From Thermoproteota archaeon (lineage in GTDB: Archaea > Thermoproteota > Methanomethylicia > Culexarchaeales > B10-G16), in the NCBI GenBank assembly GCA_003649185.1, contig QMRB01000004.1, forward strand, positions 1 to 54,957: DNA of 54,957 nucleotides, in the 5' to 3' direction. The notes beneath the pieces are model-generated. The model did not search any database. It was not told the DNA's origin and was given only the letters and a program-made list of their open reading frames with translations. Positions 48,467-54,957 of this stretch are shown here, piece by piece (the stretch's first letter is position 1; every line of letters starts with the position of its first letter). The position numbers were made by a program, and so were the translations under genes.

Positions 48467-48801
48467 GTGGGCGGCGGCGTGCCGATGCTGGACGCCTCTC
48501 CAGATCGTAGAACACCCAACGTCGAACTCAGCCCCGCACCCCCGTGAACGCCGCCGTCCAGGCTTAGGGCTGCTCCATTCCTGGCCTAACCCGTTTCGCC
48601 TGGTAATGATGGTTCACCTCTCCCTCCAGAGAGGCTACCATCTCCGACGACCCCACGGGACGAGGATTCATAGCCGAACCGTTGGGGTCTACGATCCTTC
48701 AAGACGCCTCACATCGGCTTTCAGCCCGCCATTTCGACCATTTGCGGTGTAGGGTATATACCCTACAAGGGGAGGCCGAGCCCCCCACCTAGCCGCCGCC
48801 C
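48467..48801 (-). ncRNA. ffs: signal recognition particle 7S RNA
   Basis: A GC-rich block of about 335 bases against an AT-rich background. Its ends pair perfectly over ten bases (GGGCGGCGGC at the 5' end with GCCGCCGCCC at the 3' end), closing a long rod. The minus strand contains the SRP54-binding helix 8: a GGAA tetraloop closed by CCA/TGG and followed by AGCAG, within GGCCAGGAATGGAGCAGCC. Alu-type GGTGGGGGGCTCGG lies near the 5' end. The protein partner SRP54 is encoded at 37.4 kb. Exact ends are inferred from the pairing. Confidence 0.93.
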
Positions 48802-49150: not shown

Positions 49151-49411
49151 ATGGGGATGCACATCGTGCCGAAAAGTTACGATAATTTAGCAGTAAAGGT
49201 CTTTCAGCTCTTGGATGATAATCCCGGGCAAACGATCAAGGATCTGGCCAAACAGCTGAAAATTAATAGAAGTTTCCTTGCAGGCTACTTAAAGGCTCTG
49301 GAGGACCAAGGTCTAGTTAGATCGAAAAGGATAGGCCCGCAAAAGTATACTTCAATAAAAGGAGGAAGGAGGAGAGCAAGACATGAAATATCAAGATTTA
49401 TTAGAACTTAA
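49151..49411 (+). CDS. small winged-helix DNA-binding protein
   Basis: 86 aa. A single winged helix: LAVKVFQLLDDNPGQTIKDL, AKQLKINRSFLAGYLKALED (recognition helix), then QGLVRSKRIGPQKYTSIKGG (wing) and a basic tail. It is the first gene of the NurA-HerA-ATPase unit and overlaps nurA by 29 bases, so it is a likely operon regulator or a DNA-binding accessory factor. ATG 49151 lacks a clear ribosome site; a TATA-like CTTATATAGG is immediately upstream, consistent with a leaderless or very short leader message. ATG 49157 is an alternative. Confidence 0.75.
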   Translation: MGMHIVPKSYDNLAVKVFQLLDDNPGQTIKDLAKQLKINRSFLAGYLKALEDQGLVRSKRIGPQKYTSIKGGRRRARHEISRFIRT

Positions 49412-50498
49412 GAAGCGCATGGACTTTAACTTGACAGAACCAGAAGTTTTAGTTAAACTCGTAGAGGAGGCTCGCTCTAAGGGAGAGAAGGCACAAAAAG
49501 ACATGAGAAGATTACAACAAATATCATCTAAGATCGCTGATATTTTTGAAAAGGAGGGATTAATCTTAAAGGAAGAAACTTTAGAGCAAGTTAAATTACG
49601 ATATAAACGGGCCGTTGGGATTGACGGTAGTTTCCAGTTAGCAGGAGGGGCTGGAGGTAAATGGTACGCCCCCATTAGTGTTGCAAGGATCATTTTTAAG
49701 AACGGATTTGGTAGTCAACCACATGTTGACATCTTTTGGGCGGGAATTCAAGAGATTGATGAAACAGACCACCCCGAGCCTAAGAATGTCGCATCGTTGA
49801 TGATGCTAACTGCGGAATCAAAAGCCATTTTAAATTGGGGCACGTTAAATAAACCATCCTTTGTTTTCATCGATGGTCCAGTTGTGGATCCTCCTGTAAT
49901 GAGCCTTGGAGGAGAGGATTATATCAAAGATAGATGTGAAGGAATAAAGAAATGCTTAGAAAAGTCAATTGTAATAGGGTGCGTAAAAAGATCGCGAGAC
50001 AGATTTTATATCAAATATTTAGAAAAACTTCTCTCTAATACTTCGGCAAAGGATTATTTAAGTCAATTTTTAACAGATCAACATCTTATGGCATACATCT
50101 TTGCCCATGCTAGATCTAGAAAATATTTCGGACCAATTTTTACGAATTGGATTGACATAAGTTCGGTTAACAAAATTTACGAGTTATATAAAAAACATGG
50201 AATATATGTAACATGTTTATTCTTCCAGAAAAGCATGACTTCTCCTGTTTTAAGATTAGATATTCCCTTCTTAAACCCACCCGAGAACGATTCCAAAACT
50301 GACGAAATAGTACTTCAAGCTGTAAAGGCAACAGATATGTGGACTTATCCAGGGCAAGATTATCCGCTTCCCGTCATCCTTGCCCATGAAAAATGTAATA
50401 TCCGAGAGGGGTGTGCTCAAGTTCTTTATGAAGAAATAATAACGAAGAGTCGAACTGTGGATCCATATAACCAACTTATTTTAACGCAATTGAGGTGA
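49383..50498 (+). CDS. nurA: NurA-domain nuclease
   Basis: 371 aa. NurA nucleases degrade DNA 5'-3' with Mn2+ and form a complex with HerA. The catalytic strand RAVGIDGSFQLAGGAGGKWY has D81 and the second acidic motif is SFVFIDGPVVDP with D164. C-terminal conserved-type blocks include RLDIPF and the QDYPLPVILAHEKCNI region. A N-terminal helical extension of about 70 residues precedes the nuclease fold. A very strong GGAGGAAGGAGGAG site precedes ATG 49383. Sequence around it does not look like the housekeeping NurA of Mre11-Rad50 operons, though that needs a search. Confidence 0.85.
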   Translation: MKYQDLLELKKRMDFNLTEPEVLVKLVEEARSKGEKAQKDMRRLQQISSKIADIFEKEGLILKEETLEQVKLRYKRAVGIDGSFQLAGGAGGKWYAPISVARIIFKNGFGSQPHVDIFWAGIQEIDETDHPEPKNVASLMMLTAESKAILNWGTLNKPSFVFIDGPVVDPPVMSLGGEDYIKDRCEGIKKCLEKSIVIGCVKRSRDRFYIKYLEKLLSNTSAKDYLSQFLTDQHLMAYIFAHARSRKYFGPIFTNWIDISSVNKIYELYKKHGIYVTCLFFQKSMTSPVLRLDIPFLNPPENDSKTDEIVLQAVKATDMWTYPGQDYPLPVILAHEKCNIREGCAQVLYEEIITKSRTVDPYNQLILTQLR

Positions 50499-50502
50499 TG
50501 AC

Positions 50503-52203
50503 ATGGCAAGTACGCGTGATGTTGTTGGTATAATTTTAAGTGGAAGTACTACTACCGAAGCAACTTGTCAACTTCTAGAATCTGCAGAGAGAGGCGGTAT
50601 AAAGGAAGGAATGCTCCTCTTAGTCGAAAGTCAAGGAAGAAAGCTCTTGGCAAGGGTTGCTCAAATAGTGCCTTACAATGCATTTTACACAGAAGGAGAT
50701 CCGTGGAGTGAGGCTAGGAGAAAGGGATTGCCAATACCTGAAGATGTGGCCCGAAAGTACGAGGTTTGCAAACTTGATTTACTCATAGAAATCCCAAGAT
50801 CGGAGATTAGAAGCCCTCCACAACCAGGAGATGAGGTTCTAAGAATAGATCCAACATCTCATCAAAAAGACATTTTTGGGGTCTCAGTCGGAGACCCGAA
50901 GCACGTTTGGATAGGAACTCTTTCTGGTTATGAGAGAAGCTCTGTTCCAATTCCATTAAACGTTGAAAATATTCCAATGCACATGGCAATATTTGGAGTA
51001 ACTGGAAGTGGAAAATCATTCACCGCAGGAGCCCTTATTGAGAAACTAGCTGAAGTTCCTGTAAAAAAGAATACTAGCGTATCATACCCCATGATTGTTG
51101 TTGATGCTCACGGTGATTATACTGATTACGTGACTTATGTAGCTAAAGGAAAGAAGCTCGGACATATAGGATGGATAAAGAGATACGTTTTCCCTAACGC
51201 GTTTGTACGGACGGATATTAGAGAATTAGGAAAATTAGTTCAGCCTATCGGTATTAACTTAGATTTAATTTCTCAAAGAGAACTCGCTGAGATCATCATT
51301 CTATTCTACAAAGGAACTTTAGAGGGTGCGGAGTTGCAGGTTGATGGTTTAGATGCCCTTTTTAACCATATGAGAGCAAAGGGTTATTCAAGTGTACAAG
51401 ATCTGTTTATACATTACTTTGATGATCTTGTGGAGGACGGATTAGAGAAACTTGCTAAAGAAATAAATATGCATTCCTCAACAAAAGGTGCAGTAAGTCG
51501 TGCTTTAAGAAGTTTTAAAGCGATTGAAGACGAGCACAAATTACTCTCAACGAAATCGGACCTAAAAGACGCTAAAATTTCTTCTAGGGGCGATATCGAA
51601 GAAGTTAATTTTGTTGAGCAAATTACACGTGAAGGAGGTCTAGCTATCTTTGATTTCTCAGCTGACGGAGCTCCGGGAGTGGATTTAAAAACAAAACAGT
51701 TTGTAATGACATATTTAGCAACCTTGTTGTTTGAGCAATTCACTCGATACAAGATGAAAAAAGAAGACAGGTACCTTCTTTTCATCATAGAAGAAGCCCA
51801 GAACTTCTGTCCAGATAAATCGTATCCAGTAGGTTCTAGTCTTGCGCACACGAAGCTTTCAGCAATTGCAACTCAAGGGAGGAAGTTCGGCCTTTCTCTA
51901 TGTCTCATTTCCCAACGTCCTTCCTTCGTTGACAGAATTGTCTTATCGATGTGCAATACTTTCCTTATCCATAGAGTCTCGCCAGAGGACGTGGGCTTTG
52001 TTCGTAGTATCAGTGGAGGTTTGCCGCCATCTCTCGTTCCAAGACTGACAACAATGAGTACTGGCGATGTTATAGTAACAGGTCAAATGGTTACTGTACC
52101 TTTCCCACTGGTAATACACATCCTCGAAAGCGATCGCAAGGTGAAGCCAACTGTTGGGAAAACGAATGTCTGTGAGACATTAGCTAAATTGCGAGGGGTC
52201 TAA
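50503..52203 (+). CDS. herA: HerA-family hexameric DNA translocase
   Basis: 566 aa. An N-terminal HAS-barrel (about 1-140) docks on NurA. The RecA-like core has Walker A IFGVTGSGKSFTAGALIEKL (165-172), VVDAHGDYTDYV (201-206), an all-helical insert of about 240-350, Walker B LLFIIEEAQNFCPDKSYPVG (429-434), the arginine-finger region ATQGRKFGLSLCLISQRPSF and sensor-type STGDVIVTGQM. ATG 50503 follows GAGGTGATG, 4 bases after nurA. It is likely to pump DNA through the ring into the NurA nuclease. Confidence 0.92.
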   Translation: MASTRDVVGIILSGSTTTEATCQLLESAERGGIKEGMLLLVESQGRKLLARVAQIVPYNAFYTEGDPWSEARRKGLPIPEDVARKYEVCKLDLLIEIPRSEIRSPPQPGDEVLRIDPTSHQKDIFGVSVGDPKHVWIGTLSGYERSSVPIPLNVENIPMHMAIFGVTGSGKSFTAGALIEKLAEVPVKKNTSVSYPMIVVDAHGDYTDYVTYVAKGKKLGHIGWIKRYVFPNAFVRTDIRELGKLVQPIGINLDLISQRELAEIIILFYKGTLEGAELQVDGLDALFNHMRAKGYSSVQDLFIHYFDDLVEDGLEKLAKEINMHSSTKGAVSRALRSFKAIEDEHKLLSTKSDLKDAKISSRGDIEEVNFVEQITREGGLAIFDFSADGAPGVDLKTKQFVMTYLATLLFEQFTRYKMKKEDRYLLFIIEEAQNFCPDKSYPVGSSLAHTKLSAIATQGRKFGLSLCLISQRPSFVDRIVLSMCNTFLIHRVSPEDVGFVRSISGGLPPSLVPRLTTMSTGDVIVTGQMVTVPFPLVIHILESDRKVKPTVGKTNVCETLAKLRGV

Positions 52204-52204
52204 T

Positions 52205-54957
52205 TTGGTTACGACTAGGATTTATGATAGACTGCCGAGTGACGCTGGCGTAACGTTTGAAGGATTTGAGGATATAACGCTGAGAAGCAGAGAAAGCGTT
52301 AAGAAAAAGCTAGAAGATTTCATGGATTATTGTAAAAATGCTCGAAAACCAGCTATTAGGGTAATTTTAGGAGAATGGGGAGAGGGAAAAACAGATGCTT
52401 ATAGAAGATACATAGAGCCAAAAGCAAAAGCTGATGGCAATTATGCATTTTTTGTATCCGCATCGACTCTGTCTAATGGATATGAAGCACCTGCTGTATC
52501 AAAGCTTTTGAAAACTACCTCGCTTTCAGCAGTAAGATTTTTGGTTGTATTGTTTAGCTGTATTAGGGAGGAATCTAGAGAGACAAAGATACCTGAACCA
52601 CAGAAATATCAGGACGCTTTTAGTTATCTTAGCGCTACTTTAAGCAATCTTATTGGCACAGAAAAAACACGTAGAATTTTTATTTTCGTAGATGAATTTG
52701 AGGAATTATTACTCGCTCCAGCCAAGCTGAGGGATATAATTTCTGGGATAAAAGAAACAATAAACGGAAGGTACACCGTGATAGATGAGGGGGGAGAATA
52801 TGAAGGCTGTGTGCATCTTATAATTGCAGCGACTCCCGATGCTTACTATAGATTACAGGTTGATGAAGAGACATCTCTCATTTTTGGAGGATTAGGAAGA
52901 AGGGCTGGTGTTATTGATTTACCACAAATACGGAAGGAGGAAGGGATAACTTTCCTTTTTGAGCTTTTAAAATACGCTTACAGGAATAAACTTCCACAGC
53001 CTCTTCCGTTTAACAATCTTGGGATTTTTAATGCTATATTTCGTATCGCTCAAGGTAACCCCGGAAACATAGTCAGTCTTTTTACCAGACTTATGAACAG
53101 TGCCCGGGTAAATGACAAATTCATTAGGGTTATAGATAGTGAACATTTCCTTAAGTTCTTAGAAAAGGAGTACGTCTTTGTATATGGAGGTTCAACAGCC
53201 TGTTTAGAGACTGAAACCTTTCATAGGTTTCTCAAAATTGTAGGGGATCAAAGAACAAGAGATCTTGGTGAAAAATGCTCACTATTATTGAAGATAATCG
53301 TCGGAGAACTCAAACCTTTTTCAGTAGAGGAATTAGAGAGCCGTGTTAAGCACAGAAATATCAAAAATCTAATAGCTATAATAAACAACGATTTGAAGAG
53401 AAGAGAAGGACTAGAAAAGGCTATTCTTAAAGTCAGTCCTTTACGTCAAGATAAAACATTCCACGATGTTGAAATAGCGTTTAAAGACTTCATTACCGCA
53501 GAAAGAGGTGAGAGATACCTCAAGATAGATAATTACTCAGAACGGCTAGAGGTATTTGAAGATAGGATATCCTACTTCACATATGAAGAGGGTAACATTA
53601 TCCGAAGAATTTATCTTCCTTCTGATCGACGCAGTATAATGTCCTTTTTTGAGGGAATCACCTTCGATAGGGCCGTTGAAATAGAGCACATAGTCAATAG
53701 GAGGTTATGTGAAGATAAGGATTACTACATTGCAAGCGATGAATTGCTTTCTCAAATATTTCCAACACCAATACCAAGAGAGCTCGATTTCATTAGGAAT
53801 AGAGAAAAGCGATTAAAGCTCTGGAGAGACGTCACTAAAAATCTGGCAGAAGAGTATGAAAGCTACATGCCAACAGCTTTCATACATATCCTCAAGAGAT
53901 CTAAGATATTTTCTATTACTGAAACAACAAGTTACACGCCAAGAATTCCTGTTCGTTTTGCTGAATTGACAACAGAGGGAAAGAAAATCAATACCGCCTT
54001 TTTCTCAGTAAATGGAGATGTAAAAGGCGAGGATATTGAAGAACTCTGGCGCTTAATAAGAGGAAGAAGACCCCCCATTCATTGTATATTTTTAGTTTTT
54101 ACTGGAGAGCTTACACAAGAAGCAGAAGATAAAATCGAAAATAAAGAGATGGGAAAAGATGGAGAGAACCTCATCTTAGAGATCCGTGTACATCCAACTT
54201 TAGCGAAAAGGATCATCTGCATATACAAGGCAAGTTTTATGCCAGAAGATGTTGACGAAAATCTACTTTCCTCTGTGATCGATAAGTTAGTAATACAGGA
54301 GTTAGATATTCCAAATAAGATAAAGAATTGGCTAAAAGAGCAAGAGGAAAGAGGAATTGTTATCAGTGAATTGGCGATTGAAGCGACCTCGAATCTTAGA
54401 GAATTTGCTGATACTCTCAAGTTTTTCATAAATTTCATGGAATATGAGGGTACAGTCGAGGAAATATTTAATAAAAACTTGGAATTACTCGAATATACGC
54501 GATATGCTGCGAAAAAAGTTGGGTTAATTCCAGACATACAGCTTCCAAAGTTTAACAGAATAGTGGAAGATCTCCTAAACAATGGTTTTCTGATACGCTC
54601 TAGAGGCAGATATAGAATACAACGTCATCAAGTTGAGAATAGGATCTTAAAAATACTTGAAAAAGAAAAGAAACTCTCGCAAAAAGAGCTTGAAAAATTC
54701 TTTGTTCTAAAAAGAAGTAGATATCTTAGTGACGTATTTCTTTCAATCCTTGAATATAAAGGCCTCATAAAGAGAGAAAGCAATAATTACTTGCTTACCG
54801 ATAAGAATGAATTACTTTCGGATGTAGAGGACTATTACAGAAGATTTAAGAGGCTAACAGAAGTCAAGCAATACCAAAATTATGGCTATATTTATATGAC
54901 CAAAGAAAGGGGCGAACGGTTCATTTCTTTAATCGAGTTTGAATCATTCATAGATAA
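52205..54957 (+). CDS. large AAA-type P-loop ATPase, partial at window end
   Basis: The frame runs open from TTG 52205 to the last base: 917 codons without a stop, C terminus missing. Residues 56-63 are a Walker A GEWGEGKT. Walker B is RRIFIFVDEFEELLL (DE at 163-164) and a sensor-1-like HLIIAATPDAYYRL follows at about 204-216. After the ATPase domain come about 600 residues of unassigned, charged, helix-rich sequence. Near the visible end, VENRILKILEKEKKLSQKEL and YLSDVFLSILEYKGLIKRES form winged-helix-like repeats. GEWGxGKT-type loops occur in large defence-associated ATPases such as BREX BrxC-like proteins, but I cannot assign a family. It begins 1 base after herA, with GAGGGGT upstream. 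Confidence 0.8.
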   Translation, partial: MVTTRIYDRLPSDAGVTFEGFEDITLRSRESVKKKLEDFMDYCKNARKPAIRVILGEWGEGKTDAYRRYIEPKAKADGNYAFFVSASTLSNGYEAPAVSKLLKTTSLSAVRFLVVLFSCIREESRETKIPEPQKYQDAFSYLSATLSNLIGTEKTRRIFIFVDEFEELLLAPAKLRDIISGIKETINGRYTVIDEGGEYEGCVHLIIAATPDAYYRLQVDEETSLIFGGLGRRAGVIDLPQIRKEEGITFLFELLKYAYRNKLPQPLPFNNLGIFNAIFRIAQGNPGNIVSLFTRLMNSARVNDKFIRVIDSEHFLKFLEKEYVFVYGGSTACLETETFHRFLKIVGDQRTRDLGEKCSLLLKIIVGELKPFSVEELESRVKHRNIKNLIAIINNDLKRREGLEKAILKVSPLRQDKTFHDVEIAFKDFITAERGERYLKIDNYSERLEVFEDRISYFTYEEGNIIRRIYLPSDRRSIMSFFEGITFDRAVEIEHIVNRRLCEDKDYYIASDELLSQIFPTPIPRELDFIRNREKRLKLWRDVTKNLAEEYESYMPTAFIHILKRSKIFSITETTSYTPRIPVRFAELTTEGKKINTAFFSVNGDVKGEDIEELWRLIRGRRPPIHCIFLVFTGELTQEAEDKIENKEMGKDGENLILEIRVHPTLAKRIICIYKASFMPEDVDENLLSSVIDKLVIQELDIPNKIKNWLKEQEERGIVISELAIEATSNLREFADTLKFFINFMEYEGTVEEIFNKNLELLEYTRYAAKKVGLIPDIQLPKFNRIVEDLLNNGFLIRSRGRYRIQRHQVENRILKILEKEKKLSQKELEKFFVLKRSRYLSDVFLSILEYKGLIKRESNNYLLTDKNELLSDVEDYYRRFKRLTEVKQYQNYGYIYMTKERGERFISLIEFESFID

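Follow-up and report, generated by a model that had tools for sequence, protein, structure and literature searches.

The contig QMRB01000004.1 of a Thermoproteota archaeon from the Culexarchaeales (assembly GCA_003649185.1) ends in a compact operon that encodes a winged-helix protein, a NurA nuclease, a HerA translocase and a giant ATPase; we refer to the nuclease and translocase as NurA2 and HerA2. The window we analyzed is this whole contig (G000:C4), 54,957 nucleotides long, from a genome of 1.38 Mb in 118 contigs that is 76% complete, and the contig end at 54957 falls inside the giant ATPase gene. We propose that the operon is the restriction (cutting) half of an archaeal self/non-self system resembling bacterial Dpd, which modifies and restricts DNA by means of 7-deazaguanine, with HerA-NurA and a BrxC-like ATPase doing the cutting. 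We put the probability of this reading at about 0.6. The strongest reason for it is that relatives of the operon share a pair of TGT-like and PCNA-like genes with archaeal loci that carry the known restriction genes dpdJ and dpdK, and we therefore read the operon in the window as a restriction module.

Linkage to a putative modification module in related archaea

A census of 398 genomes of the phylum found HerA2 in 19; the statistics here and below treat related genomes as independent, which they are not. A DpdA-like TGT gene was present in 17 of the 19 HerA2 genomes and in 52 of the 379 others (p=2.5e-12), and the association persisted when genera were counted (9/11 versus 15/152, p=3e-7). 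Several loci also place the genes side by side. In G003 (locus L019), the order is TGT-like, PCNA-like, ArcS-like, HerA2, ATPase and NurA2, the ArcS-like protein being a DUF5591 protein with a PCxxxKPY motif. A contig labelled Desulfurococcales archaeon AUK150 (L110) has TGT-like, PCNA-like, ArcS-like, HerA2 and ATPase genes in succession, and in three genomes of family f27 the TGT-like and ArcS-like genes lie immediately upstream of a HerA2-ATPase-NurA2 block. A third lineage (G280, L095) carries TGT-like and PCNA-like genes followed by genes for a 292-amino-acid (aa) protein, an AAA ATPase, NurA and a HerA of a different subfamily. The original prediction had the ATPase recognizing or loading 'foreign or damaged DNA' for degradation; the link to TGT-like, ArcS-like and PCNA-like genes, which it had missed, yields a far more specific hypothesis.

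The same TGT-PCNA pair also occurs with known Dpd genes. On a Thaumarchaeota contig (L111) it is followed by genes for an AAA protein, DpdJ (PADLOC, 4.6e-43), an MZB-domain protein and DpdK (2.4e-10), and G235 (L096) carries a homologous set up to the point where its contig stops. The TGT proteins of these Dpd-type loci and those of the HerA loci are 46–54% identical across kinds, and up to 59%. Judging from these sequences and gene orders, the same modification module has two kinds of partner, the known Dpd restriction genes in some loci and HerA-NurA with an ATPase in others. The likeness to Dpd thus lies in a DpdA-like transglycosylase that would mark DNA, and in the TGT-clamp pair that precedes DpdJ and DpdK in other archaea. 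The systems differ in that the cutting half here would be HerA2-NurA2 with the giant ATPase rather than DpdD-K, and in that ArcS-like and PCNA-like proteins are added. PADLOC matched no Dpd protein, DpdD-K included, among the window proteins, and DpdB and DpdC had no match among the operon proteins scanned, whole genomes not having been searched for these two.

Two observations bear on what the modification genes act on. Each of the 17 genomes tested also has the tRNA enzyme TgtA as a separate protein (above the family cut-off in 15 of them), so the TGT-like protein is a paralogue and not the tRNA enzyme itself. ArcS as a tRNA enzyme has been reported missing from most Crenarchaea (PMC11298593), which makes it unlikely that the short ArcS-core proteins serve tRNA there. 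TGT-like proteins of type A keep the zinc-site CxCxxC plus His as well as the Asp motifs.

Several observations weigh against the Dpd-type reading. Other kinds of TGT-like protein (Sulfolobales, Pyrodictium-like) keep the Asp motifs without the zinc-site cysteines. The window genome, which is 76% complete, yielded no DpdA-like gene in its assembled part, where a DUF5591 search returned the housekeeping ArcS and TgtA only; G324, a HerA2 genome that is 99% complete, also lacks one. The TGT-like gene is distant from HerA2 in several genomes, and its presence in many genomes that have no HerA2 shows that it does not depend on HerA2 as a partner. The failure to find a DpdA-like gene in the window genome and the TGT-like genes unlinked from HerA2 favor the foremost alternative, namely that HerA2-NurA2 and the ATPase sense foreign DNA (by its ends, entry or replication) and degrade it independently of any modification, like the HerA-Sir2 and HerA-DUF4297 anti-phage systems, with the TGT-like gene a frequent but separate neighbor that might, for example, serve a base modification of no relevance to the module. 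The closest PDB entries to HerA2, which are HerA of S. solfataricus and several anti-phage HerAs, fit this alternative, as does the variable site at which the module lies (see below). The anti-phage systems likewise couple a HerA ring to an effector enzyme; the partners here are a NurA nuclease and a giant ATPase, and HerA2 scored 82 and 64 bits against the NCBIfam anti-phage HerA families, below both cut-offs (850 and 800). Against this alternative stand the exchange with DpdJ/DpdK and the fact that, in independent lineages, TGT-like, ArcS-like and PCNA-like genes co-occur with the module and share operons with it, and we consider it unlikely, at perhaps a third of the weight we give the Dpd-type reading.

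TGT-like genes turned up in other settings as well. In family f30 (L100:9264-11982 and L101:7699-10242) the gene lies directly beside a HerA of another subfamily, closest to the HerA of G280, a second pairing of HerA with TGT. In family f43 (L093:6286-10214 and L094:9314-13199) it lies near AIR-synthase-like and radical SAM genes instead of HerA. Convergent TGT-like and ArcS-like genes occur amid many small membrane or unknown proteins in Ca. Nitrosothermus koennekii (L112:9992-11719), in a region resembling a virus or mobile element. A contig scan with the TGT alignment, based on short peptide patterns, gave three loci and undersamples the distribution beyond the phylum.

A second HerA-NurA set and its giant ATPase

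The window genome has its standard repair genes elsewhere. Contig C94 carries NurA (Pfam, 7.7e-13), HerA and the start of Mre11, identified from its N-terminal sequence, in one cluster, so the window encodes a second, distinct set. The window HerA is only ~25% identical to the C94 HerA, and in a HerA tree it forms a 100/100 clade on a long stem with 17 HerA2 proteins; the genome's remaining HerA-family proteins also fall outside this clade, where long branches make placement unsure. HerA2 scored 92.9 bits against HerA_Thermprot, the repair orthologue family, whose cut-off is 800, and is thus not a member. We saw no Mre11 or Rad50 beside HerA2 in the relatives' loci, so that the original worry that these genes might follow just beyond position 54957, where the contig stops, finds no parallel among relatives. 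The set shares the HerA and NurA families with the housekeeping Mre11-Rad50-HerA-NurA end-resection cluster and differs from it in having no Mre11/Rad50, in its HerA clade, in the additional ATPase and in its genome position. The original view that this is not the housekeeping set therefore holds, and the possibility it had raised against itself, that the pair might be the only HerA-NurA in the genome and group with housekeeping copies, is not what we found. NurA2 is the sole copy of its type in the window genome, and its active-site residues D81, E145, D164 and H335 are conserved within its clade by alignment.

These data also bear on the idea that the operon encodes a second end-resection complex, specialized by an ORC/Cdc6-like ATPase for accessory repair or replication-fork processing and without an immune role. 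Archaeal NurA and HerA resect DNA ends (PMC4351679, PMC9960219), the ATPase fold is ORC/Cdc6-like (see below), and PCNA-like and TGT genes could fit replication-linked processes. Such a role is hard to square with the standard Mre11-HerA-NurA cluster already in the same genome, with the patchy distribution of the module (present in G003 and absent from its congeners) and with the carriage of the modification genes by viruses, and we judge it improbable, more so than immunity without modification. DNA import of the Ced/Ted type, with HerA2 as the pump and NurA2 producing single strands, is very improbable: Ced does employ HerA/VirB4-like ATPases (PMC11868833), but the similarity of HerA2 to the CedD family is weak (79.3 bits against a cut-off of 600), a score on which we dropped HerA2 as a CedD import ATPase, no Ced partners were recognized in the operons, and the operon partners are a nuclease, an ATPase and base-modifying enzymes.

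The giant ATPase accompanies HerA2. Outside family f27 it was found in 8 of 8 HerA2 genomes, compared with 2 of 390 others when clear cases are counted (p=3e-15). In family f27, which is Sulfolobales-like and probably belongs to the Sulfolobaceae, the block consists of HerA2, an ATPase of ~1000 aa, a 230-aa coiled-coil protein and NurA2, and profile comparison shows this ATPase to be homologous to the giant ATPase (99.3%, E 1.9e-20). The ATPase gene adjoins HerA2 in G003, L110, G380 and every f27 locus read; the two are unlinked in G057, G104, G216 and G231. The proposal that the large ATPase is conserved with HerA, whose failure would have counted against the whole prediction, is thus borne out.

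The relatives of the giant ATPase are ~1390–1580 aa long and have a C-terminal coiled coil. No Pfam family matched the protein above its cut-off, and PADLOC, NCBIfam and Pfam leave it unnamed. An AlphaFold2 model of the 917 aa in the window (pLDDT 76.7, pTM 0.66) found its best Foldseek match in Cdc6 of Pyrobaculum (1fnn, E 4.1e-7), and most of the next matches were AAA+ proteins of the ORC/Cdc6, clamp-loader and TnsC/MuB types; a model of the Sulfolobales-like homologue (pLDDT 80.1) likewise matched AAA+ proteins, and a PDB sequence search with the giant ATPase returned AAA+ and coiled-coil matches only. The protein thus models as an ORC/Cdc6-like AAA+ domain followed by winged helices. In layout, with winged helices, an alpha+beta region and then a coiled coil after the AAA+ domain, it is similar to the BrxC described in PMC12839542. 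The BrxC/BrxD and DUF6079 profiles gave no match to the window ATPase, and the Sulfolobales-like homologue matched BrxC_BrxD at 4.3e-4, below the cut-off. One genome (G104) encodes a 932-aa short paralogue (L024:6496-9294) in addition to a full-length copy.

The window genome also encodes a 995-aa HerA-like protein (L007:6008-8995, G000:C1) with two fused extensions, a coiled coil and a long tail that is rich in cysteines and zinc-finger-like. Open reading frames of similar size with a HerA-family match are present in G002, G003 and G004.

The operon and its genomic site

All four gene families named in the original prediction (winged helix, NurA, HerA and a large P-loop ATPase) were recovered by our searches, and its coordinates and strand for the four genes were correct (Table 1). 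The winged-helix and NurA2 open reading frames (ORFs) overlap by 29 bases; the gaps are four bases between NurA2 and HerA2 and one base between HerA2 and the ATPase. The winged-helix protein, which had been taken as part of the module, is not supported as a conserved component: it had no homologue in the related loci blasted, and none is seen in the L019 and L110 operons.

Table 1. Features of the window and of the Dpd-type loci used for comparison (positions are those of the window unless a locus is named).
Feature	Position	Strand	Basis
Archaeal signal recognition particle (SRP) RNA gene, fixed left neighbor of the variable site	48471..48799	-	Rfam RF01857, 165 bits
Winged-helix DNA-binding protein (MarR/ArsR type), 86 aa, probable regulator	49151..49411	+	ORF; Pfam MarR 4.5e-8, HTH_24 1.9e-7, HTH_5 3.7e-7
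NurA2 nuclease, 371 aa	49383..50498	+	Pfam NurA PF09376 5.2e-11
NurA2 catalytic Asp81 codon (DGS motif)	49623..49625	+	Asp invariant in alignment of 12 NurA proteins
HerA2 hexameric translocase/helicase, 566 aa	50503..52203	+	Pfam DUF87 1.9e-24
HerA2 Walker A, GVTGSGKS	50995..51018	+	Invariant alignment columns
HerA2 Walker B glutamates (EE of IIEEAQN)	51790..51795	+	Invariant alignment columns
Giant ATPase, 917 aa to contig end, TTG start	52205..54957	+	ORF; family membership; AAA+ model
Giant ATPase Walker A, GEWGEGKT	52370..52393	+	W58, G59, G61, K62 invariant in 12 members
Giant ATPase Walker B, DEFE	52691..52702	+	D163, E164, E166 invariant in 12 members
Thaumarchaeota-type Dpd loci with PCNA-like clamp	L111:9998-20954; L096:8999-19001		TGT, PCNA-like, AAA ATPase, DpdJ, MZB protein; DpdK in L111

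The stretch before the operon had been taken for a decayed gene; it holds an intact SRP RNA gene instead, and on the strength of the Rfam match we dropped the decayed-gene reading. The SRP RNA gene has the same synteny in four relatives, with other genes beyond it there, and the order of the three genes upstream of the operon and the SRP RNA is kept in relatives from the same order. Past the SRP RNA, G002–G004 have archease-like and RtcB-like genes, and G001 (L162, G001:C3) has a gene for a 947-aa protein and then an apparent DNA cytosine methyltransferase gene, all named from sequence only. The module is also patchy within genus g3, where G003 has HerA2, the ATPase and a TGT-like gene, and its congeners G002 and G004 have none of these. 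Because content past the SRP RNA varies and distribution within the genus is patchy, the data support the operon being an accessory element, as the prediction of an inserted accessory module had it. The contents of G001 and the window suggest that the site, beside SRP RNA and a tRNA, is a possible hotspot for defense genes.

Related systems, viral genes and a proposed mechanism

The nearest published kinds of system are Dpd (PMC6884629), BREX-Related Capture (BRC) with HerA and TGT (PMC12839542) and BRIGADE in haloarchaea (PMC12458937). BRC combines a HerA/FtsK translocase with a BrxC-type ORC/Cdc6 AAA+ protein, and a subset of BRC systems also has a TGT; its pairing of a HerA translocase with an ORC/Cdc6-type AAA+ ATPase is also seen here, for HerA2 by Pfam and for the ATPase by its model. 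BRC further has PglZ, DUF6079, a STAND NTPase, DUF4007 and GNAT, whereas the nuclease here is NurA, with ArcS-like and PCNA-like proteins in relatives; PglZ, DUF6079 and DUF4007 had no Pfam matches in the window or among the scanned proteins of the operons. An extra HerA-NurA pair outside the repair cluster is also known in Thermoproteota from the CRISPR-linked nurA-csm6-herA clusters of Pyrobaculum, which are tied to csm6 and CRISPR arrays; the available passages of that report mention neither a giant ATPase nor a TGT (PMC3396285). In the literature consulted, a cutting half made of HerA-NurA and accompanied by ArcS-like and PCNA-like proteins appears to be undescribed, a full-text search combining NurA and deazaguanine having returned nothing relevant.

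Viruses carry the modification genes too. An earlier search for DpdA and 7-deazaguanine genes listed 12 Ligamenvirales and 2 Bicaudaviridae among archaeal viruses (Hutinet et al., 2019; PMC6884629). We found TGT-like and ArcS-like genes side by side in STSV1, STSV2 and STSV4, and a TGT-like gene in ~30 further viral records, mostly rudiviruses, including SIRV2, where it is gp13, near the AcrID1 gene gp10. In STSV1 (L138, NC_006268, 3064-4405), ORF18, whose annotation is queuine tRNA-ribosyltransferase, overlaps ORF19, which is listed as hypothetical and encodes an ArcS-core (DUF5591) protein; the two are likely a DNA-modification pair. The DNA of STSV1 was reportedly described in 2005 as carrying an unusual modification. 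Synechococcus phage Ssp-JY38 (L152, PP438428, 1-9558) is an independent case of a TGT beside a clamp, with the full preQ0 pathway: queE, queC, queD, folE, the TGT-like gene and a sliding clamp (DNA polymerase III beta) are consecutive, and the region also holds DNA polymerase A and, further on, an ArcS-core relative annotated as acid phosphatase. Relatives of HerA2 were not found in viral contigs, and phage records gave weak HerA-like matches only.

The mechanism that we infer, including discrimination between DNAs and a modification half in the window organism itself, would run as follows. A DpdA-like transglycosylase, led to new DNA by the PCNA-like clamp, would exchange some guanines for preQ0, and the ArcS-like enzyme would elaborate this base, possibly to a lysine adduct, to give the self mark. 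The ORC/Cdc6-like (BrxC-like) ATPase would inspect DNA and load or license the HerA2 ring on unmarked molecules; HerA2 would then pump the duplex into NurA2, which would degrade it. The winged-helix protein probably regulates the operon. In its fullest form, to which we would give somewhat less than even odds, the proposal is that Thermoproteota mark their own DNA through the clamp-guided DpdA-like/ArcS-like pair with a 7-deazaguanine derivative new to cellular DNA (for example, preQ0-lysine or an archaeosine form) and destroy unmarked DNA by HerA-NurA licensed by the BrxC-like ATPase, and that Sulfolobus viruses, STSV1 and SIRV among them, counter this by encoding marking enzymes themselves.

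If true, restriction-modification by base swapping would reach into the hyperthermophilic archaea, where a nuclease and a motor known from repair would form a new kind of cutting half, and a function would be found for the additional HerA-NurA pairs and the TGT-like genes that these genomes carry. There would also be a reason for the 'queuine tRNA-ribosyltransferase' gene in STSV and rudiviruses, and the reported modification of STSV1 DNA would be explained as well.

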